Assembly (NCBI GenBank): GCA_964036195.1
Contig: OZ038456.1
Span: forward strand, 2,232,001-2,296,000
From: Sphaerolaimus hirsutus
Taxonomy: Eukaryota > Nematoda > Chromadorea > Monhysterida > Sphaerolaimidae
DNA: 64,000 bases
Direction of reading: 5' to 3'
Shown here one piece after another: positions 284 to 58,107 of the stretch (position 1 is the stretch's first letter; each line of letters begins with the position of its first letter). A program made the translations under genes and the position numbers. The notes beneath the pieces are model-generated. The model was given only the letters and a program-made list of their open reading frames with translations, was not told the DNA's origin and did not search any database.

Positions 284-1616
284 GGAATTACAGCTCAGCG
301 GCGTTTGACGTGAAATGATGACGTCGTAAAATTGATTACATCAAAATAGACATAGGTACAGCGTTGAAATTTCAGAATTTGATCGTTCTAGTAATTGTGT
401 GTGATGTCCCAAAAAAATTTTACCAAATAATCATTATTTAAGTAGTTATTTATTAAACGTCAAAATTTTTTGGTGATGTGAAATGTTGATGTAGAATGTG
501 TTAATTTTGACGTAAAATTAATAACTTATTAAATAATAATTATTTTCTTAATTTTTTAGGACTAGTGATGGAATGGCGCCATGGCGCTGGCGCCAATTGA
601 GGGCGCCAAAGGGCGCCGCGCCATGGCGCCATTGGCGCTTGGCGCCCTTTTTCTGTGGCGCCCTTGGCGCCTGGCGCCCACATTCTGAAAGGCGCCATGG
701 CGCCCTTGGCGCTTGGCGCCCTTTTTCCGCGGCGCCCTTGGCGCCTGGCGCCCTGCTTTCAAAGGGCGCCAAAAAGGCGCCATCAGGGTTTCAAGGTGAG
801 TGCTGTGTAAATGAAAAAAAAGATGAAAAACTCATCTGTGGATGATCTAAATTCGCCAGAAAAATGGACGAAGTGGTGTGAGCGAGTGAAAATCTTTTGT
901 GCAACGGTTCATCAGATGTGTCTGACAGATCAGAAGACGGGAATGATGAACCGTTGGACTTGCAAAATCAAAAATCAACAGATTCAAATCGTTGCAATTC
1001 CATTTTTTGTCCAATTCAAGGAAACATTGGTTGGGAAAGTCTATTTGAAGTGAATGGATTGTTGTCAAATGACAATATCCATTGTGTTTGAATTCGTCAT
1101 GCGGATTTTATTTTAATTTTTTTCTTCTAGTGTTGTTTTTGTTCATTACATCCTGAAGAACGCGAATTAAGTAGTGAATGTGTGTACTAGGGTACTGTAG
1201 AAACTGTTTTAGCACACGCAGGGCGTTCTATGCACTTATTTATCCTGGCGCCCTTGGCGCCTGGCACCCTATTTTTCAAATGGCGCCATGGCGCCCTTGG
1301 CGCTTGGCGCCCTCTTTCCGTGGCGCCCTTGGCGCCTGGCGCCCGCTTTCCGAATGGCGCCATGGCGCCCTTGGCGCCTGGCGCCCTTTTTCTGTGGCGC
1401 CCTTGGCGCTTGGCGCCCACTTTCTGAATGGCGCCATGGCGCCCTTGGCGCCTGGCGCCCTTTTTTCTGGCGCTTTTCCATCACTATTTAGGACATTACA
1501 TACAATTACTAGAACTATCAAATTCTGAAATTTCAACGCTGTACCTATGTCTATTTTGATGTAATCAATTTTACGACGTCATCATTTCACGTCAAACGCC
1601 GCTGAGCTGTAATTCC
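284..1616. mobile_element. 1.3-kb element with ~125-bp terminal inverted repeats
   Basis: Bases 284-408 (GGAATTACAGCTCAGCGGCG...) are repeated almost exactly in reverse complement at 1491-1616. Inside are a second inverted repeat (about 405-558, AT-rich, probably a later insertion), two GGCGCC arrays (562-790 and 1231-1488) and about 430 bases of ordinary-looking sequence between them (790-1225). The central part has only ORFs of up to 80 codons, without a recognised domain. No clear target duplication is seen. It lies upstream of the globin start codon. The class is unknown; long terminal repeats and no transposase suggest a non-autonomous DNA element. Confidence 0.75.
562..790. repeat. GGCGCC/GCCATGGC self-complementary array
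   Basis: It starts TAGTGATGGAATGGCGCC, the terminal repeat of a TAGTGATG family seen complete at 17174-17363. The body is repeated GGCGCC, GCCATGGC and CTTGGCGC words. All frames stay open because the words are stop-free, so the long ORFs here are not genes. A sister array at 1231-1488 lies in the other half of the host element. Confidence 0.7.
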
Positions 1617-1852: not shown

Positions 1853-4800
1853 ATGTTAGGATCCAAAAATATGGATGTAATGCCAAAAGATGCGACTATG
1901 TGGGTCCCAAATGAGAACGAAATCCATGCGCTGAGGGCCACCTGGTGCCAGTCCCAGACCCTGTAAAATGTCAAATGTCATGTAAGGTGTCCAAAAATCG
2001 TGTTAAGTGCCTTGAATAAAGGTAAACGTGTCATTTTAATGGCATTTTCCATGACTTTTGACACTTTGCATGACATTTGACATTTTACAGGGTCTGGGAC
2101 TGCCGCCAGGCCAGCAGATGACCGCAAAGCCCAATTACAGTTCGGAAGTGAAGTTTTTGCAGTCGTTTTCAGCCTGAAGCCGGAAACAAAAGCAATTTTC
2201 CCCAGTTTTAAAGGAAAACCGGCTGATCAGCTACAATCTGATGAACAATTCAAGATTCTAATCTTTCGTGTGACACAGGTGGGTTGGGTGTGCAAAAACA
2301 TGGATGTTGGGTCAGGGACGTAAAAAAAATAGCCAGGATTTTTGAGCGGGGTAGGGGGGGGGGGGCGGATTGTATACGGAGCTCGGCGAAAGGGGGGGGC
2401 GGCGCCCCCCCCCCCCCCCTAAATTTGACCTCTGTGGTAAAGGAATGGCGCCTTGGCGCCAGCGCCATTCGTAGGCGCGACGCCATGGCGCCATTGGCGT
2501 TGGCATTGGCGCCAAATAGTGCTGTACTTGTATGTATTTTACATACATATACAGCGACAGGGGCGAATTTTCAGTGCTTTTTTGGTCCTAAAAACCAAAA
2601 ACGGCCGCCCCCCCCCCCCCCCCGCCCCCCCCCCTGGCTACGTCCTTTGTGTTGAGTGAATTGAGAAATGGCCACATGAAGTTTGACAATATGCACAGGT
2701 GATAAGTACATGCGTCAAGCGACTGGACAAGCCGGAAACACTGAAAGCGCTGCTGCTCGGGGTGGGCGGCGATCATGTTACCCACCAAACATGCACTGTG
2801 GTACATTGTTTTTTGTAGACTTTGTGAATGCAGAGAATTGCGGTCACTTTCAGACATTTAAAAAAAGTGTGTTTTGAATGCCACAGACAGTCATTTTGAT
2901 TGATGAAACAATCCGAGTTGTTTCAGCATTTTAAGGTTTAAAGATGTCAGTGGAAAACTAGCGTTCAAACAAGATCCTGAATCCCGATATTTTCACCATT
3001 TTGCGGTCCCCCCGATTTGAGGCACAATTTCTCAAAAATCGCTCAAGATAGCTGGCCGATCCGTAGGGGTCAGTAACCAAAAAAATTTACATCCGTGCTA
3101 TATAGCTGAGAACCTCCGGGATAGATAGCTGGTAACCCCTAACTAGGGTTGGGAATTTCAAAATTTTCGGGTTCGGTATCGGGTCCTAAAAATTTCGGGT
3201 CGGGTATCAGGCATCGGTTCCAAAAAATTTGCGGGTTTTGGGTTCGGGTATTGAGGTCGGGTATCGGGTCGGGTTTTCAGGTCAAAATGTTGGGTATTGG
3301 GTAATAGAATTGTCGGGTATCGGGTAATAGAATATCAGGTAATAAAATCATCTGGTATTGGATTGAACAACAAAAATACAGCAGTGTAGTGTAAATATCT
3401 ATCACAAAATGTACAAACTAAGTGCAAATACACATGGAGAAAGCAGTTTAAAAAAATTATTTTGCTCAAGAAAAAGCATGATAAATGAATTGTGATGGCT
3501 CCACCTGTTGGGGCATATTGTCTTGCCATGGCTGCTGAGGCCTCAAGAATGATGTAACATAGTTTTTTCAGGTTTCATTATTGCCCCCTGTTTTGACATC
3601 AGTATGTTTGGGTAAAAACCAGTGATATCTATATATAAATACTAAAAGCACCACAAAATTTCAACAGTGCTCGAAACATCTTAGTTAATGGGGGCAGTAT
3701 TCCAGTGGCCTTCACAGGATGCCAATAAAGTGGAAATGTTGGCACACTCAGGATATGGATACTCATTGCCTGATTACAAAACAGTTGCACTGAACCAGTG
3801 CAACCGAATAGACTTTCAGGAGAAAACTGGAATCAAGTGCACCCAGATTACACAGCCATTTTGGCCAAGGGAAATGCAGCTATCTGGATTGTCTCCAATT
3901 GAATAAACTATTTCAAATATGAATAAAAAAATGCAGTGCATAATAAAATCAGATCTGAAATAATTGAAACAATCCAATTAGAAGTGTCTAAATTGCAACT
4001 GTACAAAACAACTGGGCTTTGTTTTCACAATGCTTCCAAATTTCTTGAAAGATTGAACTTTGGGAAATTTTTGTGTGTATTTTCGGGTATTGAGTGTGGG
4101 TTCGGGTATTGAGGTCGGGTATCGGGTTCGGGTAGTAGAGTCGGGTTCGGGTATCAGATCGGGTTCCGTTCCAAAAAGTGTGAGGGTATCGGGTTCAGGT
4201 CGGGTCGGGTCGGGTTCACAACCCTACCCCCGACCACTACATTCGAGACCCCTGGTTGCCTATAAAATAAAACCATTGATTTACTAAAATTCCACAATTT
4301 TTTGACAATCAATAACTTTATTTGTCATGAACTCAAGCATGCATAAAGTTCGCAATCAACTGAGCAAGCTGCAATGCATGGATTTTGGTGAAGCATGCAG
4401 TGCGCGGATTTAAAGCGGAGTTCTGGACGGTGTTTCGATCCGCCATGAAAACGGCTGTGGTAAAGTATTTGCTGGTTGGGGCGGCGCCAGAAAAAAGGTA
4501 AGCACATGAAAACCTCCAGAATCTACTACAGACCGCTACCAGTCCCAAGCCCTGTAAACTTTAAGTCAAGTGTCAAACGTCATGACAAATGTCACACAAA
4601 TTTGTCAACTGTCATGCAAAGTTCAGTCATAAAATCTAGTGTTTTATTTGATAACATCTTTTCGTTTTGGTTGACATGACATCCTTGATCTGGATCGGGG
4701 CAGCCCCCCCCCCCGGGATCAATTCCGCAAGTGAAGTAAACAATCATTGTATTTATCGTATTTCCTCGAAATACCCCCCCCCCCTCAAAATGTGCACTAT

Positions 4801-5466
4801 GAATTTGTGGTCCGGGAAATGCATAACAGACGTTCAAAACACTGTGCTACGTTAGAACATCGTTAGAACCATCTTATATAAGGCTGTAAAAACTTATAAA
4901 TTGTGGTTATTGTTGCAGTTTTCACGTTTTTCTCTCAAAATTTACACTCTGAAAAAATTAACCCCCCGGGGGTAATTCGAGGAAATACGGTACAAGTGAA
5001 ACGCGTGAACCTAATAAAACGAAAGGAAATTTAGTTGAAATTTAGAAATAAAACACACCAAATAAAAAAATGTTAAATTGGAATTTTTACCGCACTGTGG
5101 AACGTTTTAAACACCACTAAAATCACCTCTCACTTCTACAACTGTTGAATTCACGCAGAACTAAATTCAAATTATTTATGAACATTAACCCGGATAAAAA
5201 ACTTTAAAAAACTGGCAATTTCGCCCCGCAGGCAGCTGACACAAGAAAGCTGGGGCACGCTAACAAACTACATTGTTTTGCAACTGGAAACCGGCTTCAA
5301 GCAGGCAGTGGCAGCCAACCCAATGCCCATAGAAAGCTCCAATAGGCACTCACTGTCAAAAAGCACTTCTACCCCGAAATTGGGATCTCTAGTCAGAAGG
5401 AACACACAGCCGAGGGGATTTGGCCCTACGAAGGGGCTAAAACATCACGATTCGTTTAAAAAGTGA
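1853..5466 (+). CDS. globin, five exons, C-terminal basic tail
   Basis: Haem protein of the globin fold, probably cytosolic; role (oxygen binding, redox or sensing) unknown. Exons 1853-1944, 2110-2278, 2699-2776, 4394-4497 and 5232-5466 join in phase to 225 codons. A-helix Trp31 lies in HALRATW. Phe61 in IFPSF fits position CD1. FKILIFRVT (78-86) aligns without gaps to neuroglobin FLDHIRKVM, so the distal His (E7) is Leu81. VGGDH (109-113) supplies the proximal His F8. GFKAEFWTV and QLTQESWGTLTNYIV match the G and H helices. Residues from about 172 form a Ser/Lys/Pro-rich tail of about 54 residues absent from standard globins. Intron 1 is exactly one introner-like element. The exon 3 donor is the least certain junction (a downstream GT at 2790 is possible). 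The alternative, a distant globin pseudogene, is unlikely because all phases agree. Confidence 0.85.
1945..2109 (+). mobile_element. introner-like element forming globin intron 1
   Basis: This 165-base element has inverted repeats of at least 34 bases (CAGTCCCAGACCCTGTAAAA and onward, mirrored before the right end). The left end reads CTG|GTGCCAG and the right end GCCGCCAG|G, so GT and AG are the element's own terminal bases. Splicing it out gives ACC TG|G CCA, coding for Thr-Trp-Pro in the globin A helix. Read through, it would stop the frame at once. A possible 7-base flank match (GGCCACC/GGCCAGC) is weak evidence for target duplication. Confidence 0.85.
2313..2649. mobile_element. hAT-like MITE (CAGGGACGTA family) in globin intron 2
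   Basis: Ends CAGGGACGTA and CTACGTCCTTTG are inverted. Flanks TGTTGGGT and TGTTGAGT form an 8-bp target duplication with one mismatch, as expected for hAT transposons. The interior has poly-G/poly-C blocks and a GGCGCCATGG-type core with TATGTATTTTACATACATATA. Confidence 0.85.
2960..3142. repeat. fragment of the GATAGATAGCTG/CTCCGGGA repeat
   Basis: Shares GATAGCTGGCCGATCCGTAG and CCTCCGGGATAGATAGCTGG with longer copies near 8.37, 33.1 and 38.9 kb. It is directly followed by the 3144-4226 element. Confidence 0.5.
3144..4226. mobile_element. hAT-like element, TCGGGTA/TTCGGGT body
   Basis: Terminal TAGGGTTGGGAATTTC and the right-end ...TTCACAACCCTA are inverted. Flanks CCCCTAAC and CCCCCGAC match at 6 of 8. 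Both ends are filled with GGGTTCGGGTAT-like words and the middle is more complex. A 72-codon ORF (3688-3906, +) lies in the middle; it matches nothing I recognise and I do not call it a gene. The element sits in globin intron 3. Confidence 0.7.
4537..4682 (+). mobile_element. partial introner-like element
   Basis: Starts CTACCAGTCCCAAGCCCTGT and keeps the internal CATGCAAAGTTCAGT...GGTTGACA stretch also present at 47376-47556 and 54552-54739, but lacks the right terminal repeat. It lies in globin intron 4, about 40 bases after the donor. Confidence 0.7.
4757..4993. mobile_element. TACCGTATTTC palindromic MITE
   Basis: Left arm CGTATTTCCTCGAAATACCC and right arm GGTAATTCGAGGAAATACGGTA are inverted, with poly-C next to each. 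The interior is close to the copy at 40093-40341. Confidence 0.75.
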
Positions 5467-11608: not shown

Positions 11609-14600
11609 TCAGCCCAAAACCTTCTTACACATCATCTCACTCCAATCCCATAACTCCTGTTGACCACTTTCATCCCTGGTGCCACTCCCAGACCCTGTAA
11701 AATGGCATGTGAAATATCAAATGTCATGCAGTCAAAAGTCATGTAAAATGCCCTAAAAATAGCAAACGGTTTGCCATTTTCCAGGACATTTTACATGACA
11801 TTTGACACTTTGCATGTCGATTGACATTTTACATGGCAATTTACAGTGTCCGAAACTGGCACCTGGCCCACTTGCACGGCTGCTGTGGCTCGCAGCGCAC
11901 GTTGATGTAAAGTCCGGATTTGTTGCGCAATTGCGGCGACACGCTGCAGTGGTGCAGCACTTTGGACCCATTAGGCACCGGCGACCCGGAAAAACCGCCC
12001 GCGCTGTAGGAATGGTTGACGATTAGTGATAGTGGTGATGAATTGTCATGAAGCGTCAAATGAAGGTGAATGGTGAAATGAAAATCCTAATTTCAATGTA
12101 CCTACCGTATATCCTCGAATAAGACTCACCTTTGTGGTAGTTGATTGGACCTAGCAGCGGTAAACAACAAACACCGCATGGCAACAGTGCTCATAGCGCA
12201 ACTGCGTGTGCTCAGTAGGCCACAATCACCGCATGGCAACCGCGGCACACACACAATGACCGTAGGCGCCCGCCGCCAGCGCATGAGCGGCCGACGTGTT
12301 CGCGTCCGGCTGGCGCCATTCCTGTCACGCGGCCGAGTCCACTCACACCCTTTTTTTTGTAAAAGGCACGCGGATGCCTATCTTCGCGGCAGCCGCGCAG
12401 TCATGTGTTTCAGCTGCATAACCGCCACTCACATTATCAAATGTGCAGCAGCGTCTTCATATCAATGATATGAAAAGTAACGTAATCATGCCTGGTATCG
12501 TAATGCATGCGCTGGCAAATTTGTATGCGTGTTGCGATAATCTGATATCCACTACATAAGTGCGGTGCAATGACTTTCGCAGCATTTTTGCACCCGCAGA
12601 GAGTGCCACACTGAGAGTGCTACACAAAACATGCAAGCGCATGAAATATTTTGCATCATTACACACGCACACATGCCCATGAAACACTTTGTATCATTAC
12701 ACACGCCCATGCGCCCATGAAACACGCCAGTTTGCCCATGAAACACACACGCGCGCGGTGTCATAGCAATGTATGTGTGCGCGTTGCATTTACTTATTTA
12801 TTTTGTAAGTATAATCAACTGTTTTCAGCGCTGTATATTACCTATTTACATGCGTGCCAAATTGCGTTTGATGCCTTTGATAGTTAAACATGCAGAGTAA
12901 ACATTGTTAGATGTGTTAATTGTGTCAGAATAAACAATTAATTCATTGGAGAGACTCAATCAATTGTAGCACAGCAAATATCCAACCAAAAATATTAACA
13001 ATAAATAATCTGTATAAAAAATGTTTAGACATTGTTTGACCAATTAGTAATATTAAAATTATTCATTATGTTACCACAAATAACTTCCCGCTTTTGATAA
13101 TTACCATTGAAAAGCACAAAAAACTTGATAATTATATCGAAAAAATTACTCCCAGGTAGGGTGTCAAATTTCCATTTCCGTTTTCCGTTTCTGCCTTTCC
13201 GCAGGAAAATTTTTTACCTTTCCGTTTTCTGTTTTCCGGCAGCTGAAAATTTTTACGTTTCCGTTTCCGTTTTTCCGGCCCATGTATCCGTTTTCCGGCT
13301 GAAAATTTTTTTATCTTTCCGTTTCCATTCCCCAGGCCATTTTTCCATTTTCTGGCTTGATTTTCAGTTTTCTGGCATTTTTCCATTGTTTTTCCAATCT
13401 GTATTTATCTTTATCCACTATTGTGTTTTTCACTACCAGGTTCTTCTGTCATTCATAATTTTTATCTGAATCCAAATCTGTAAAAAACACAAAGTAATGT
13501 TAGACACATACTTTGCAGTCTGCTGAGTATACTGTTTACTGTTCAGTTACATCAAAGTTCACGTTTGCTCAATTCTTATTGTTGTTGTAGTGTATTTTTG
13601 CTACCTTTTGATGATTTTTTGTTGGTTCAGTTAAGCTTGAACTACAAGTGAAGTTACTGGTATGATACATAGTTGCAGAATGTACAGCTACCACAATCAA
13701 AGCCAAACAGGCAAACCTGCATGCAGGTTGGCCTTCTGCAAATTTGTCTATTACTGTGCAAATTTCACTTTATTTTTTTCCGTTTCCATGAAAATTTCGC
13801 TTTCCGTTTTCCGGCATTTCATGTTTCCGTTTTCCAGCTGACAATTTTTTTTACCTTTCCGTTTTCCGTTTTCCGATGAGTGAAATTTTTTTACCTTTCC
13901 GTTTTCCGACAGAAATTTTTTTTTCACCTTTCTGTTTTCCATTTTCCATAAAAAAATTTTTTGACACCCTACTCCCAGGGTGTTTATTATGCTAACAAAG
14001 TACCATATTTGCTTGGCAATTCCTGTAGAAATTCCCCTCGTAAGTAATTCACCACCTCAAAAAGTTCCCCCCTCAAACAGTCTGACGAAATGATAATTCA
14101 CAGGGGAATTTTTCAAGCAAATACAGTAGGAAATATAGTTAATATGTTAATCAAAATATCTATGATGTTAGTACACTATAAACCTCATCACTGTTGAAAA
14201 TCTAAGACAAAATACAATGTTGAATAATGATTAATTTTGGTTTGCTATGACACCGTGCGCGTGTGTGTTTCATGGGCAAACCAGGGTGTTTCATGGCGCA
14301 TGGGCGTGTATAATGATACAAAGTGTTTCATGGGCACGTGTGCGTGTGTAATGATACAAAATGTTTCATGGGCACGTTGTAACTCACTGGGCAGCGCTAA
14401 GAGGCAGGCTCACCCAATGTGTTATCCAGCTGCGAGCCTCCAAAGAGCTTGCCAACACTGGCAAGATGAGAAGTGAGAAAGTAGAACGTTTGGGGTGCGA
14501 TGTGATATTTATTTATTCACCGTCGCCTTGTGACACGTCCACTTGTTTTCATATCACTTCATTTTCTTGGTTTAACATGGCCCGAGGCCAACAAATAAAT

Positions 14601-20600: not shown

Positions 20601-23600
20601 AATAACACGAAAACTTTTTATAGCCCTCTTTTCACTTAACAGAAACGAAGAAAATTAAGTGTCACAATATAAAATTAACTATGCTTTATCACATAGGAAA
20701 GTAGAGATCACATAGTCAAACAGTTGAATTTAGTTTGATTTCACAACACACTAATTCACACAAAATTTGGTGTCAACTAGCGTGTGTAGGCTCTGCTCTA
20801 CCTCCCGTTCTTCCAGCAATTTAGATAAATACATAACCCGACCCGGACGAAATTTTGCACATAAACGTTTTTGTATTCAATAGAAATGGATGAAATGCAA
20901 TACGATGCAATGGGCCCGCACACACTAGTTGACATCGAAAATTTGCGTCAACTCAGTGTCAATTGAATAAAACAAGAAGTTTGTAAAAAGCATCACACTT
21001 AACAGGAACAATGAAAATGAAGTGTCATGATGTAAAATTAACTATGCTCTATCAGATAGATAAGTTGAAATCACAGTATCACTTTAATACAGTTGACATT
21101 TAGTTGACACGAATTCAGTTGACATCCAGTGTGTGGGGCCCCATTATGATACGATTGACAAAAAAATTTAAAAAGTTTTACTCCTTAAAGTACTTCAGTA
21201 GCTGAATAGCTACTTGTTGTTAACTGCAATTTTTTATGAAAATGTCCACTCTGTACCTCATCTAGCCAGTCAGGGCTGAAAATAAACGAATTCAACCTCT
21301 ATACATTTCTAATTTTCATTTGTTTTTATTTGCAAAATTAACATTCAAATATCGTTTTCAGTCAAGCGTTGCTCCCGGCATTTACAAGTGCACAAAATGC
21401 GAAGAAAAAATGTCAGTGCATTATGGGGCGAGAAGAAGGGGTCTTTACTGGATTCTGGCCGGTTTTGCAGTGTTGGTACCGTTTTTTCTCTATCTACTGA
21501 TATCTGGGATTCCCAAACTTATGGTTGGTTGATTTTTAGTGGAGGAATTAGTTTGACAAACAGATGTAGTTAACCCAGGGGCAGTCCCAGACCCTGTAAT
21601 GTAAAGTGTCAAATGTCATGTAAAATGTTACTTTACTTTACATTTGTCATGACATGACACTTTGTATGACATTTTAGATTACATTTGACACTTTACTTTA
21701 CACTTTAAAGGGTCTGGGATTGGCACCAGGAACAACCATCGTATTCTACACAAATATAATAACCAACTACCAGGATTATACCACATGGGAGCCATGGATG
21801 TCTCGTGAAAGACCCAGTCTAGAGTCTGTCATCTTACCATTTGCAGCTCCCCTTATTGGCATTCTGCCAGCTGCACCACTGATTTTGTGGGGTATCAGAA
21901 TCAGAGCACTGCCCAATGCTAGGCCTGTGAATGTCCAGTCGCCTACACAAATTCCGGTGAGCAATATTATTTGACATACTGGGCAACAATTCAGGAAGGC
22001 ATTTGTGAAAAGAGGGAGGTTTATGGGCCAAGTATACTTCAATGGCCGAACTGTAACTGTAAACGAAATCGTGAAATCAAAGGGTAGCAATGGCGCTGCG
22101 AACACTAGTACACCACCGAAATTTGGGAAACGCATACATATGTTTTGCACACATTTGAGTTTACTACAATGAGGAATCTGTCAACTACTGTTGATGGCGA
22201 TCAAAAATTGTTCATTCTGGTCAACTTAAATGTGTTCAAAACAGATCGAAATACGAGTTTGCCAACATTCGGTGTACTAGTGTGCGTAGCCCCAATATAC
22301 AAATTCGAACTGTATTACATCAATGGTTAATTTTTCGGTAACTGCCATGGAATGCCCCACAGCGCGCATGCAGTTGTCAACGCGGTTGTCCACTGAGCAC
22401 AGTTGTCCACAGAGCTCAGAGGTTATTTTCTCATACGTTTAAGTATTTACTCATCGCTTAAAGAGTACATGGGGAGTTCCATTCTAAAAGTTCACAAGCG
22501 CCAAATCCAGAAAAATTGAGTTAAGCGTGGATTTGACCTCCACGTATAGTTTTTCACATTTTAGAAAAAAAATCAGCGTTATAGTCCATTTCGTTCCCGA
22601 GATACAGTGGTACCGTTTTTGAGAAAAATCACAATTTTCACATCGAAAGTGCACATATCCATCTCAGATCCCCTATGAAAAACAGGACTTTCATTTCGTA
22701 AGTGCACATATCCATCTCGGACCACCGGAGTTTCATGTCATAAGTGCACATATCCAAAAAATAGTTTGATTTCCAAAAATGCACGCGTGCTTCGGCGCGG
22801 CCGCGTAGAGCTGCCCGGAATTCCCATACAAAAAAAAGTTTCATTTCCAAAAATGCATTTACTACCGCAGTGAAAAGACCATTATCACCACTCAGACAGT
22901 GACAACGTCAATAGCGCCGCCATCTATTCCAGCCCAACAAACAGTGCTGCCTCCCCCGGGACATGTTCAACAGGCACCGTACGCACCAGCTATGGCGGGG
23001 CAGGATTACCGTAATAGTGAACCACCGCCACCGGATTATGCGGATGCGGTACGGTAGATGTTGGGTTGAGTGATTTCGTGAATAACTTGAGGTGGTTTGT
23101 GGTGATGTGATTGTATTTGTGAGTGTGAGGTGCATTTGAGGAGTTTGATTCCGAAACCCGTTATCTGCACGTTTTTGGGATTTTTGAAAATCGCACTTAA
23201 AATTTTGACATTGGCCCGAGCCAGCATGGTTTGAGTGACAACGCTCGCTCAAAACTTTCGAAAAGGCCATGAATTTATCTACATTTACCATATTTACAAC
23301 CCTCTGGCTGGCAAATATGGTTAAAGTTATGGCCACTTGATTGACATCACATCAACATACGTACATGGAGATTTGTTCCTTAACGGGTTTCGAGTGCAAA
23401 CTCCATTTTTGTATGATTTTGACACCTCTTGGTCAAATCCTTAATGGGTTTCAGATGCAAACTTGTTTATCTGCAGATAACGGGTTTCGAGTGCAAACTC
23501 ACCTATTTTGGGTTGTAGATAACGGGTTTCGGGTTTCGCATAACGGGTTTCGCATTTTTTTCAAAAATCGGTATCTCTGTATGGCAGTGCACTATTCCGC

Positions 23601-26600
23601 ATCTAAACCCATCCCGCATGTTGACCCGGAACACATTTAATTTTACATGGCATGTTGAAAATAAGTAATAAAACACATGACCTAGTTATTTTGAAGGTAA
23701 AAATCTATAAGAAGTAGGAAAATTGGGGAATTTTGGTGAAAATTAGGGTAAAATTGCTCAAAAGCGCTCCAGATAGCTAGATAGCTAGGCTATTTGCGGG
23801 TGTGGGGGTGTTCAAGGGAATGTAGCCAAAAAATTTGCGCCAGGGATAGATAGATAGCTGAGCGGTTTGGGGTTGTGTTACCCACCCCCCTTTCTTACCC
23901 CTGCAGGCATAATGTGTCTATAATGGGTCTACATGCGGAATGGGCTTTGATGCGGAATGGGCCCTAGCCTCTCTGTATCTCGGGAACGGTATGAGATATT
24001 GAGGTAATTTTTTTATATCATGACTAAAAATGAAAATATATATCAGATCCGCACTTAACTCATTTTTTTCACTTTTGCACTTAACGGGTTACGGAACCAA
24101 ACGCCTCATTTATGTATGCAATGCTGTTTGATTTGTTTGATATGGAAATGTAAAAAATATTGTTGTTTTTTCTCTGTTGATTTGTAAATATATTAATACA
24201 CTTATAAAATAAAGACAGTATTTTGAGTTCAGTTTAATTTAGGATGATGTTTAATCAGATAAAAATCATCTCAAAATTTATAGCAAAGCAGTAACGACGA
24301 CACGATGTAAACGATAAACGCAAACTTTCAGTTTCCAAAAAAAACACAAACTTTGAACTGACCCCGCAGCCCAATAGTCGCATTTCATAACAGCAACACG
24401 ACCAACTGTAACTGACAATCAGGGGCACTCCAAGACCCTGTAAAATGTCAAATGTCATGCAGTGTCTGAAGTCATGTAAAACGCAAATGTGTCAGTCCCG
24501 TATGTTTGCCATTTCCCAGGGCATTTTACATGACTTTTGGTATTTGCATGACATTTGACATTTTACAGGCTCACCTGTTTGAGCGAGCCAAAATCGGCGA
24601 CAACGGTGCCAATGCGCTGCTTTACCTCCTCGCCCAGCTGCTCGACCAGGTAAGCGACTGCCTCGTTGCAACGCTGCTGCGAGCGGCCGTGTATCAGCAC
24701 GCGATGTCCTGAATGGGCAAGTGTGGATTGTGTCGGAGACAACTGCACTGCACCATTCCGCATGTAAACCCATCCCGCATGTTGACCCGGAACACATTTA
24801 ATTATACCTGGCATGTTGAAAATGGGTAATAAAACAGATGACCTAGTTATTTTGAAGGTGAAAATCTATAAGAAGTATGAAAATTAGCGAGTTTTGGTGA
24901 AAATTAGGGTAAAATTGCTCAAAAGCGCTCCAGATAGCTAGATAGGACCCAGCAGCTGTAGACAACAAACACCGCATGGCAACAGCGCTCATAGCGCAAC
25001 TGCGTGCGCTCAGTAGGCCACAATCACCGCATGGCAACTGCGGCACACAAGCAGTGACCGCAGGCGCCAGCCAAGATGGCGCCATGGCGCCGCCAGCGCA
25101 TGAGCGGCCGACGCGCTTGCGTCTGTCTGGCGCCATTCCTGCCGCGCAGCTGAGTCCACTCACACGCTAATTTTTGTAAAAGGCATGCCGCCGCGTTCAC
25201 GCCTATCTTCACCGCAGCCGCACAGTCATGTGTTTCAGCCGCATAACCGCCCCTCACATTATCAAACATGCAGCCGCGTCTTCATATCAATGGTATGAAA
25301 AGTAACGTAATTATGCCTGGTATTGTTGTGGCAGAACAATGCATGCGCGGGCAAATTTGTAAGTGTGTCGCGATAATCCGATATCCACTGCATATGTGCA
25401 GCGCAATTTATTCCGCGGCATTTTTGCACCCGCAAAACACACGTGGCGCGCTGATATACTGCCCCCCGCGCCGCAGTACGGCTGGCTTCTATTTGTCTTC
25501 TGCAACTTTGGGCGGCGGCGCGGCAGAATGTAGACACGCGCTGCGCCATTGGCGCCGGCTGGGCAGGCGCCCCGTGGCAGCGGTATGCATGCGCGCGTGT
25601 CGCGGTTGCCATGCGGTGATTGTTGCCCAATGAGCACACGCAGTTGCGCTATGAGCGCTGTTGCCATGCGGTGTTTGTTGCCTAGCGGTTATCCGCCTTA
25701 GATAGCTAGGCAATTTGCGGGTGGGGGAGTGTTCAGGGGAATGTAGCCAAAAAAATTTGCGCCAGGGATAGATAGATAGCTGGGCGGTTTGGGGTGGGGT
25801 TACCCGCTCCCTTTCTTACCCCTGCAGGCATAATGTGTCTATAATGGGTCTACATGCGGAATGGGCTTTGATGCAGAATGGGCCCTAGCCGGAGACAACT
25901 GGCTTGTGGTTTAGTGTGCAAGAGTGTCGGATTTTTCTTATCCGCTGCGGCACATTAAATAAGAGTTTTTTTGTTTTATTTTCATTAAATAAATGATCAA
26001 ATCTCTCGGGAAAAGATATAAATAAATAATAAAGATATATAATAAGATTTTTTATATTTAAAAAAATATAGATTTCCCGAGATTGTTTGAACGCTTATCG
26101 CAATATCGACGAAGTTTTGATGATTTTGTAAATATTTCCTGAACGGCCTTGCTATCAGTGAATGTGGGCCGATCCTGGCGAAGCGCACTGCCCTACAAAT
26201 CCGCCAGACTACCGAATTTACCCGTTGGTGGACACGTCACAAAACCACACCAAACTAGGGTGTCAACTTTCAGTTTTCCGTTTCCGCAGGCATAATTTTT
26301 TCAGTTTCCGTTTTCCGGCAAAAACAAAAAATTAAAATTTTGTTGGCACCCTACTCCAAACCAACAATAGGCCTACACACGCTAGTTGACATCGACACCA
26401 AATGTCAACTGGTGCCGATACCGATTCAAAGCTTGCTGACGAGTGGACGAACCACGTTCAAACGCAATCTTGGAATAAGGAACGGAACCAGTTGACATTT
26501 GGTGTCGACGTCAACTAGCGTGTGGGGCCAATCTCACACCAAAATCAATCCACCAACCATCCTGCAGCAGTCGGCGAGCGGCGTCGCGGCCGATCCCGTC

Positions 26601-46500: not shown

Positions 46501-49500
46501 CTCCATGTGGCCGCAAATCGGTATAAATACACTCAATCTTGTGCTTTTTTGCTGTTTTGTATGTATATTTACATACATATACAGCGTTCCATGGCGCTGG
46601 CGCCAACGCCAATGGCGCCATGGCGTGGCGGCTACTAATGGCGCCAGCGCCATGGCGCCATTCCGCCACTATGTAGCTCAAACTTTAGGGGGGGGGGCTG
46701 AGCCCCTCCCCCCCTCGCCGGGCTCCGTAAACAAGCAGCCAGCTCAAAAATCCTGGATACGTCCCAGTTTCCACCTTTCCCATTTTCCTCTACATCCTCA
46801 TCTTTCCTCTACACATTCAATTTTCTGCTTTTCCGCCTTATTCCCCTTTTCTGGCTCAATTTTTTTGTTTTCTGCAAAACGGTAAACACGCGGGTTCTCA
46901 ATGATGTGCAATTTTCTGTTTCCAGCAAGGGCGTACGCAGGGGGGGGCGGGGGGGCGGCCGCCCCCCCCCCCCCCCCGTTCCCGGGTCGGACAGAAAAGT
47001 TTGCCAGAAATGGCACTTTTCTAAGGCGAACTGGTAGGCGCCAACGCCAACGCCAATACTGCCATGGCGCTGGCGCCTACATATGGCGCCAGCGCCATGG
47101 CTCTATTCCTTTACTATAGGACAACATTTTAGGGGGTGGGGGCGCCGCCCCCCCCCGTTCGCCGGGCTCCGTATACAATCCGCCCCCCCCCCGCTCAAAA
47201 ATCCTGCGTACGTCCCTGGTTTCCAGCAAAACTTCTGCAAATTATCCTATTTCCGGCAAAATTTCTGCAGATTCTTTTCGTTTACAGCAATTTCGTTTTT
47301 CCGTTTTCCACCCTTTCATTTTTCCGTTTCCCATAAAAAAAATCAATTGACACCCTAGTTGGCAGGTGTAATCATGGTGGCAGTCCCAAGCCCTGTAAAG
47401 TGTAAAGTAAACTGTCAAACGTAAAGTCAAATGCAAAGTAAACTATCAATGGACATGCAAAGTTCAGTAATAAAATCTTTTCTTTTTTGTTTTGATTGAC
47501 AGTTTACTTTACATTTGACACTTTACTTTACACTTTACAGGGCTTGGGACTGCCCCATGGACGACCTTGTTTTTGTGTCCTTAAACAAATCAATAGAGCA
47601 AAACACACTATTGAACTGGTGGTCTTCTGGGGGCTGTCTCACTGCACCATAGCGTCGTGAAGCGTGGCGGATACGCCTCCGCTGCCATTTGAACTCCCGC
47701 CGGGCCTCTTCCAGCAGCTGCTCACGAACCGCGTCCACCTGAATTTACGGTAGCGTACATACGGTAGCGGTAGCTACACGGTAGGTATACTCGGCGGACA
47801 TAACACTTAGTATGGAAACCTACCATAACCATCTGAATAGTGAAACAAAAATTATTAAAAAATGATCATTCATAATATTTGGTTTTCACTGTGGAAAAGT
47901 TAATTAGGAATATTATCACAAGATTTGACTCGATAGATTATGGTACGATTCTGCGCATACTTTGCGGTCCGACGAGTAAATATTAATACCCGAATCCTCG
48001 AATCCTAGAATAATTCCCCCGGGGAGTTATTTTTTCGTCAGAAGTTTTTAAAGGGGAGTTATTCGAGGGGGAGTTATTTTTACGTCAGTATTTCCAGTAA
48101 AATGTATGCAACAAAAAGTTTACTGCACAAATGGGGTAAATTTGGTAACATAAATGATTTGTAGGAATACAAAATTCACAATTCAAGCAGTGAAAACAAT
48201 GTTAGTGAACTCTAGCTGCAAGATATCTTTACATATAAAACACATAAAACGTTTTTTGTAAATATGTAATGTTATGAAATATTTCTACCCATCAAAGTGG
48301 GGGGGGTTATTTGAGGGGGGGAGTTGTTTTTTCCTCACACTCAGAAGAGGGGGGACTTAATCGAGAGGAGGAAGTTATTCGACAGGGGGAACTTATTCGA
48401 GGATATACGGTATATAGGTTTGTTGTAGATTTCCATGTGTCGATGTATGCCAGTACGGTGCGGTAAATCTCGAAAATTACGGTAGAAGGCACGCTCAACT
48501 GAACAGTTTTGACGGTAGATTACGGTAAATTAAGCCGCGCCGCCTACATGACATTTCCATGTATTCGACAATAATCAACCTGTTCCCTCTGGGTGGACGA
48601 AGATTCCTGGTCGCCCACTTGTTCGTATTGCACTTGTAGAGTGGCTGGAGTTGGCAGAGTGCCAGAAACTTCACTCTGCCCACAGAGGTGCAAGGGCGTG
48701 GCCGGCGCTAGACCAAAGAAGTTCTCGGCGGCTTCTTTGATGCTGTAAAAGTGAACGAAGATCACGTTGTGATCTTGAGTACAGCTGGAGTACACAATCT
48801 TAAAAACACAACACAATTTTTTTTTGTATTTGTAGAACTAGGTATTTTGAAAATTGTTTGCACGCAATTTCACATAAATACAAATTACCATTGGTGGTTG
48901 TTTTTATTTCTGTGGCCCGTTTACTATAACATCACAAACTACTGCCACTTGTCTGACATAGGTGTATATGTTGACTCTTAACTATTTTTGGTAACTTTCT
49001 AAAAAACGGTTGAAAAACGTTTCAGATTAATAAAAAAACACTTTAAAAACGGGTCGTTGAATTTTTTTCCAGCCCTAACAGAACTCCACTCCTATCATAC
49101 CCACAACACATCCCAACAAACCTCTGCGCTCTAGTAAGTCTCCTCCTAAGGGGCTGTCGGGTAGCGCCCGACAAATTAGAACCCCTAGAAAGGGCAGTGT
49201 GCGCATAGGGCACCCCCGTGCCGGCGGCGGGCATGTGAGGCTCGTGACTCGACTCGTAAGGTTGAGATATACTTTTGGTGAGCCGGTGGCCCCCCGAGCC
49301 AAGGTTGGGCGGTAGTGACCGGGCAGCTGAGGTTGATGTGGACCGCTCGTGGGTGATCGGTTGAGTGAAGGGGTCTGAGAGGGGGTTGAAGGGGGTGATC
49401 ACTTTGGGGTTGTGAGAAATAGAAAGGAATGATCACTTTGGGGTTGTGAGAAATAGAAAGGAATGATCACTTTGGGGTTGTGAGAAATAGAAAGGAATGA

Positions 49501-54551: not shown

Positions 54552-54739
54552 GCTGGGGGCAGTCCCAAGCCCTGTAAAGTGTAAAGGAAAGTGCCAAATG
54601 TCATGCAAAGTGTCAATTGTCATGACAAATGTAAAGTATAGTGCCAACTGTCATGCAAAGTTCAGTAATAATTTTTTTTTGTTTTTATTGACATTTGTCA
54701 CTTTACTTTACACTTTACAGGACTTGGGGCTGCCACCAG
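54552..54739 (-). mobile_element. introner-like element, split copy
   Basis: GCTGGGGGCAGTCCCAAGCCC at the left and CAGGACTTGGGGCTGCCACCAG at the right. On the - strand it would open CTG|GTGGCAG and, before the insertion at 54551, close CCCCCAG|. Neighbouring exons are not convincing. Confidence 0.75.
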
Positions 54740-57825: not shown

Positions 57826-58107
57826 ATGCAAAACAAGGTGTCAATCCCAGACCCTGTAAAATGCCCTGTAAAATGTTAAATGTCACGCAAAGTGTCAAAA
57901 GTCACGTAAAATGTCCTGCAAAATGGCAACTCTTTTTTGCAGGGCATTTTACGTGACTTTTGATACTTTGCATGACATTTGACATTTTACAGGGCATTTT
58001 ACAGGGTTTGGGACTGCCCCCAGGACAGTTTTGTGCCCGGAGTTTTGATTAGAAAGGGAAGATGTTGGCCAGGACAGGCGGCCATTGCGGTGGACGCAGG
58101 AATCCAG
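57826..58107 (+). CDS. putative gene start: MQNK exon, introner intron, second exon
   Basis: ATG at 57826 opens a 12-base exon ending AACAAG|. An introner-like element (57838-58023) follows with GT and AG at its ends, then exon 58024-58107, which is open in the required phase 0 only (DSFVPGVLIRKGRCWPGQAA...GIQ) and ends CAG|GTGATT. The other two frames of the second exon stop. Protein not recognised and no downstream exon identified. Confidence 0.35.
57838..58023 (+). mobile_element. introner-like element, complete
   Basis: AAG|GTGTCAATCCCAGACCCTG at the left, CAGGGTTTGGGACTGCCCCCAG|G at the right, with ACATTTGACATTTTACAGGG arms. 186 bases. Confidence 0.85.

Follow-up and report, generated by a model that had tools for sequence, protein, structure and literature searches.

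Introduction

Repeat-derived introns that arose from transposable elements occur in the larvacean Fritillaria, where host, targets and splice signals differ from those considered here. The introners of Micromonas and Aureococcus were reportedly recognized as intron-making transposable elements by Huff et al. in 2016, again with other hosts, targets and splice signals. In diverse eukaryotes, introners are described as families of introns that are alike up to their splice borders and bear terminal inverted repeats (TIRs) and target-site duplications (TSDs); some of them carry one splice site and take the other from the TSD, and the length of the mRNA stays mostly unchanged (Gozashti et al. 2022, PMC9860276). 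In the sections of that work on which we draw, introners are proposed as the major source of new introns, and only two animal groups are given as hosts, copepods being named. The introners of the parasitic dinoflagellate Amoebophrya have hairpin-forming inverted repeats, direct repeats across their borders and non-canonical borders, according to the portion of the report used here (PMC7789003).

A 3-bp CWG TSD, confirmed by empty sites, is ascribed to the NuwaI group of PHIS (PIF/Harbinger-like) transposons, whose TIRs usually start with GGG and which are reported only from animals (Han et al. 2015, PMC4482050). Membership in NuwaI is also judged by mobilization through a DDE transposase, mostly accompanied by a Myb/SANT partner protein. 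Here, we describe a family of foldback elements with CWG targets in Sphaerolaimus hirsutus, starting from the first intron of a globin gene in a 64-kb stretch of DNA at positions 2,232,001–2,296,000 of contig OZ038456.1, hereafter the window. Judged from the genomic DNA, its copies inside genes look able to leave the message exactly, as new introns, some of them ending in TG.

Results

A probable introner as intron 1 of a globin gene

The globin gene lies on the plus strand of the window, with exon 1 (MLGSKN...ALRATW) at positions 1853–1944, exon 2 at 2110–2278, exon 3 at 2699–2796 (3' edge approximate), exon 4 at 4386–4498 (edges approximate) and the last exon at 5228–5463 (edges approximate). 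Intron 1 is a predicted GT-AG intron of 165 nt in phase 2 (1945–2109), with GT at 1945–1946 and AG at 2108–2109. It consists of a foldback MITE of the CWG-target family (1945–2106, plus strand), with the 5' end GTGCCAGTCCC and the 3' end GGGACTGCCGC, plus one target copy, which bears out the preliminary description of a 165-nt element occupying the whole intron. The inverted ends, put there at 34 bases or more, extend to arms of 55 nt (1941–1995 and 2056–2110) that are 91% complementary.

Joining 1853–1944 to 2110–2278 (92 + 169 nt) yields the open frame ...HALRATW-PADDRKAQ..., which agrees with the earlier proposal that excision restores Thr-Trp-Pro in the A helix; the A-helix Trp falls on Trp in both solved-globin alignments shown. 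When the frame is read without splicing, a stop is reached 21 nt into the element. The spliced frame matches Pfam Globin at 4.6e-14 over residues 45–167, that is, beyond the junction at residue 31, and 7 of the 10 solved globins with E ≤0.01 align from before the junction (best 1hlb, 8.4e-6). Elsewhere in the genome, a distant paralog of the globin gene (contig C7, E 0.127; Pfam match 1e-4) reads ...ILRSSWAAINKHREAV... uninterrupted at the place of intron 1, its Trp being matched by eye.

The left target copy, CTG (1942–1944, plus strand), forms the last three exon bases and codes, together with the next G, for the A-helix Trp (TGG), whereas the right copy (2107–2109, plus strand) now reads CAG and would serve as the 3' splice site. 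Because the conserved Trp codon needs TGG from the left CTG and the following G, the target was most likely CTG originally, and the right copy has presumably since turned into CAG by a T-to-A change, giving a proper AG. The bordering CTG and CAG, previously placed in the terminal repeat, are target copies outside it. The right end had been given as GGCACCAG; the actual reading is ...GACTGCCGCCAG, and the reverse strand starts with GC, not GT.

Just upstream of the gene, dense palindromic repeats of GGCGCC and CCATGGCGCC occupy window positions 552–790 and 1213–1480, the second block containing units of ~74 bp. An Rfam search of the 64-kb window at the gathering threshold gave no match.

A large family with two types of ends

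The preliminary description had proposed a genome-wide search with the terminal sequence. In the 348 Mb searched (762 contigs), the exact 19-nt terminal core occurs 3,897 + 3,868 = 7,765 times, as compared with 0 for a reversed-pattern control; the window holds 12 occurrences of the terminal 19-mer at ≤3 mismatches versus 0.03 expected. Two types of ends are distinguished. The GT-type end, CWG-GTGCCA, has 1,735 + 1,692 = 3,427 exact occurrences (control 0), and the other type, CWG-G(G/C)GGCA (GGGGCA or GCGGCA), has 1,952 + 1,968 = 3,920 (control 0). The second end of the globin copy is GCGGCA.

Our set of 97 complete copies comprises those of the window, those of the loci L009–L044, which were picked by similarity to the globin copy, and those obtained from 60 ends on contig C1 (L045–L104; the first 20 CAG and the first 40 CTG ends in listed order), 52 of which gave a complete copy. 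Most complete copies have one end of each type, and the element therefore has a direction. GT stands at both ends in only 10 of the 97, the globin copy not being among them, and ends of the other type start with GG or GC. This rules against the earlier view of symmetrical ends that would make an insertion spliceable, and harmless, either way round. The accompanying suggestion that the ends carry ready-made splice sites holds for the donor, GT being supplied by one end type, but not for the acceptor, which comes from the target duplication.

The window contains further copies of the family. On the minus strand are 11676–11862, with CAG on both sides and no Pfam match across the junction; 21582–21722 (core to core), with CTG target copies; and 54553–54736, with CTG left and CAG right. 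On the plus strand are 47381–47552 (core to core), of the AAGCC subfamily, with ATG on both sides, and 57838–58023, with AAG left and CAG right. The flanks of the copies at 21582–21722, 54553–54736, 47381–47552 and 57838–58023 are not coding-like.

Target duplication and possible transposon affiliation

Under a search pattern that leaned towards CWG, 68 of the 87 one-way complete copies have CWG on both sides, and 19 further copies lack it on a side. The middle bases of the two CWG copies agree in 52/68 (P 7e-6). Empty sites were found by 1 of 93 joined-flank queries, that of the L058 copy, which lies inside another repeat; all 20 alignments read a single CTG (20/20), some of them to both strands of one palindromic repeat. 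The concordance and the single CTG at the empty sites indicate that the element duplicates a 3-bp CWG. A 5-bp CCWGG target, suggested by a few copies, was abandoned, as the wider set and the empty sites fit 3-bp CWG.

The 16 discordant pairs among the 68 are biased, with 14 CTG/CAG (left/right) and 2 CAG/CTG (P 0.036 against class sizes). An excess in this direction is as expected if TG acceptors have been improved to AG. We dropped the idea that discordant targets are a mark of selection confined to coding copies, because 10 of the 14 CTG/CAG copies do not score as coding-like.

The CWG duplication is the same as that of NuwaI. By comparison with the NuwaI TIRs, which usually begin with GGG, one end of the present family is GGGGCA or GCGGCA and the other is GTGCCA. 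The present element is a short foldback MITE, one end of which starts with GT and whose target and termini point to NuwaI; the consulted part of the NuwaI paper mentions no role in introns (PMC4482050). The DDE_Tnp_4 transposase family (PF13359) has at least 163 matches in the genome, none of which is tied to the family termini, so that the proposed affiliation is based on target and termini; within 50 kb of the two listed PF13359 matches on contig C1 below 5.36 Mb, there was no exact core. More than 100 of the listed PF13359 matches are near-equal in score and mostly contain 3 to 5 TGA stops within the region matched, which look as if each match held the same short intron (for example, G000:C2:10037349-10037981).

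Copies at exact exon junctions in unrelated genes

Flanks were joined at the borders CWG^GT...WG^ (a caret marking the splice border), and 45 peptides for 36 copies, some in two frames or from both strands, were compared with Pfam; a crossing was counted when a domain match above the curated cut-off spanned the junction. Besides globin, a domain crosses the junction in 7 of the 36 copies, representing 5 genes: carbonic anhydrase (L019, 9.6e-16), pyridoxal-dependent decarboxylase (L009, 1.3e-20; junction in GGGVIQ^GSASE), the C-terminal domain (C-RD) of a RIG-I-like protein (L013, 7.8e-6), Oscp1 (L064, 3.4e-19; L074, 5.8e-17, with 40 residues on 40 model positions) and the chondroitin transferase domain CHGN (L083, 5.9e-16; L084, 3.9e-16). 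Domain matches above the cut-off that only adjoin the junction were obtained for the LRR copy, the KH copy and another copy in carbonic anhydrase. No domain crosses the junction in 38/45 peptides (29/36 copies), and most of these copies rest on codon usage alone. A reverse-strand control of three peptides gave no Pfam match.

The donor is GT in the globin copy and in the 7 Pfam-crossed copies, GT having been required in copy picking. AG is present at the acceptor in the globin gene and in the CAG copies, and absent at CTG/CTG borders. In the unspliced frame, 23 of 24 listed copies reach a stop inside the element, and the remaining one (L096) stops 19 nt beyond it.

These junctions bear on the possibility of an insertion into a pre-existing, ordinary globin intron, with later deletions moving the ends of the element to the exon edges. 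A parallel for such a history is offered by the short-chain dehydrogenase-like gene of the window, an intron of which starts in an eroded family copy without coding sequence being resumed at the far end. A fit that is exact at both edges and flanked by CWG on either side, however, recurs in unrelated genes, and the distant globin paralog is intronless at the same place; we accordingly regard this history as very improbable. The dehydrogenase-like gene itself was recognized by eye, from open frames near 26.7, 24.7 and 15.7 kb, and its intron donor is the eroded 5' end, now CAG^GTGAGCCTGTAAAATG, of the copy at 24413–24574 (minus strand, low edge approximate).

A SET/MYND-like gene (assigned by eye; L057 and L068; no Pfam match) contains a CAG/CAG copy and, adjacent to it, a 382-bp CTG/CTG copy after which the coding sequence is not directly resumed. 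The haplotype-like carbonic anhydrase regions L019 and L020 carry insertions of ~340 bp and ~900 bp, respectively, the latter being 95.7% identical to window 563–1486, where GGCGCC-rich sequence precedes the globin gene. In the part of the gaps inspected, the two regions hold the same two paired family copies, with no insertion polymorphism of the family.

Orientation of copies relative to coding sequence

Copies were scored by codon usage, the table being built from 884 codons of supported exons without those of the locus under test; the coding-like cut-off of 8 was chosen after the first listing had been seen. We set aside L020 as the haplotype twin of L019, the 10 copies with GT at both ends (the decarboxylase copy L009 among them) and copies with a flank <60 nt or without a 3' end found. 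Flanks are coding-like on some strand in 25 of the 87 one-way copies, with the GT end upstream in 22 and downstream in 3 (P 8e-5). The other 62 are not coding-like by a score that misses AT-rich exons, those of globin included. One of the 3 reversed copies (L055) is GT-first according to its LRR matches, codon usage pointing to the wrong strand, and the assignment of L102, counted among the 22, is close to a tie. The predominance of the splicing orientation and the presence of target duplications, together with same-family copies at exact exon junctions in several unrelated conserved genes, support the initial identification of the element as an introner, that is, an intron-making transposable element.

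CTG/CTG copies and candidate TG acceptors

As the target itself is the acceptor, a CTG target gives CTG^GT...CTG^, without AG at the border. Exons show no avoidance of this class: in the contig C1 sample, 20 of 46 one-way complete copies are coding-like, and 13 of those 20 are CTG/CTG. These 13 make up the entire coding-like CTG/CTG class of the set and are GT-first in 11 cases and reversed in 2 (P 0.011; the near tie L102 is among the 11). Two CTG/CTG copies lie inside Pfam matches, to OSCP1 and CHGN, and the spliced OSCP1 peptide, ...MDKLYDL^MTMACKYQ..., shows no net gap to the Oscp1 model. Ten of the 12 listed CTG/CTG copies interrupt the reading frame in phase 0, at a CTG Leu codon. If these genes work, exact removal at CTG^...CTG^ with a GT donor implies a TG acceptor. 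PDB searches with two CTG/CTG junction peptides returned nothing.

In the part of the human survey consulted, TG 3' splice sites of U2 introns are found only as alternatives, with an AG within 28 nt, and AG-to-TG mutants activated neighboring AGs (Szafranski et al. 2007, PMC2374985). Like the human sites, the CTG/CTG copies have an AG nearby, 19 nt upstream. In human, the TG site is merely an option beside an AG that is used; in the present copies, use of the nearby AG would shift the frame, so that splicing would have to rely mainly on TG.

The human data lend weight to the reading that CTG/CTG copies are unspliced, disruptive insertions, that is, null alleles, and that only copies with a CAG acceptor are introns. 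The 11-to-2 orientation bias, the share of 13 in 20 coding-like copies and the positions within the OSCP1 and CHGN matches speak against null alleles, which we consider a serious but somewhat less probable account. Alternatively, CTG/CTG copies may be spliced to an AG further downstream at the cost of a few codons. An in-frame AG is indeed found within ~60 nt in 9 of the 12 listed copies; however, there is no such AG in the other three, the offsets have no common pattern, and OSCP1 would lose at least MTMACK, which is at odds with its gapless Pfam match, so that downstream splicing appears unlikely. A more far-reaching interpretation, for which we judge the chances to be even, is large-scale production of GT-TG introns by the family: in-frame insertions in CTG Leu codons would be cut out exactly, TG acting as their main acceptor because the hairpin presents CWG at its base, and some would later become GT-AG by a single T-to-A change.

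Folding and a proposed mechanism

The RNA fold predicted for the globin copy has −99.8 kcal/mol (z −17.8 versus 200 shuffles), and the three copies folded all form a near-perfect hairpin of −100 to −124 kcal/mol. In the globin copy, GUG of the donor is paired and the last three bases are unpaired; in two CTG/CTG copies, both the GTGC start and the last seven bases, ending in CTG, are unpaired. The motif TTTTACAG, 19 nt upstream of the CTG/CTG acceptor, lies inside the stem. We also asked whether the intron actually runs from the inner GTAAAA to TTTTACAG and rejected this, as its removal leaves ~37 nt and shifts the frame (few copies, counted by eye).

Taken together, the feature is very probably an introner. 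On this view, it is a non-autonomous DNA transposon of the foldback type (MITE) that duplicates CWG as NuwaI does and becomes a spliceosomal intron on landing in an exon. In the mechanism that we propose, a transposase would cut at CWG and duplicate it, the 5' end of the element would provide the donor GTGCCA and the downstream CWG copy would provide the acceptor. Splicing would then take out the element and one target copy, making the coding sequence exact again in any frame, provided that the GT end comes first. GTGCCA is a weak donor relative to the splice consensus. The presumed hairpin may bury the inner GTAAAA and TTTTACAG, the use of which would shift the frame, and may keep the terminal CWG free at the foot of the stem, beside the donor. 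A CAG target would give a GT-AG intron and a CTG target a GT-TG intron, in which the inner AG 19 nt upstream perhaps serves for first recognition.

Discussion

The copies described here represent a large animal family of probable introners with a readable mechanism. Since the target duplication is the 3' splice site, a single base shows which acceptor an insertion has. A rough extrapolation puts exonic copies at about a thousand genome-wide; it is based on the first 8 Mb of contig C1, where flanks are coding-like at 18/40 CTG-type ends and at 2/20 CAG-type ends, or 3/20 when L064, which has Pfam support, is counted. These shares were weighted by 49 CAG and 51 CTG among the first 100 ends listed and scaled up to the 3,427 ends. 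Splicing of the CTG class, if it occurs, would offer a natural experiment on the need for AG in 3' splice-site choice. The target choice of a transposon would then supply an animal with non-canonical introns that have an inherent route to becoming canonical.

In the open-licence literature on introners and Harbinger elements, we found no animal family with a CWG target as acceptor. Introners with TSDs and TIRs are already known (PMC9860276), as are hairpins and non-canonical borders in Amoebophrya (PMC7789003), at the level of detail that these sources provide in the parts used. The present family resembles the Amoebophrya introners in its hairpins, border direct repeats and non-canonical borders; by comparison, the Amoebophrya splice motifs, as described in that portion, vary widely, whereas the present family keeps GT at the donor and has CAG or CTG in the acceptor position (PMC7789003). 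With the introners of diverse eukaryotes, as characterized in the sections cited, it shares the likeness of copies up to the splice borders, the TIRs, the TSDs and the combination of one carried and one TSD-derived splice site; it differs from them in that the target itself is the acceptor, so that CTG targets give TG (PMC9860276).
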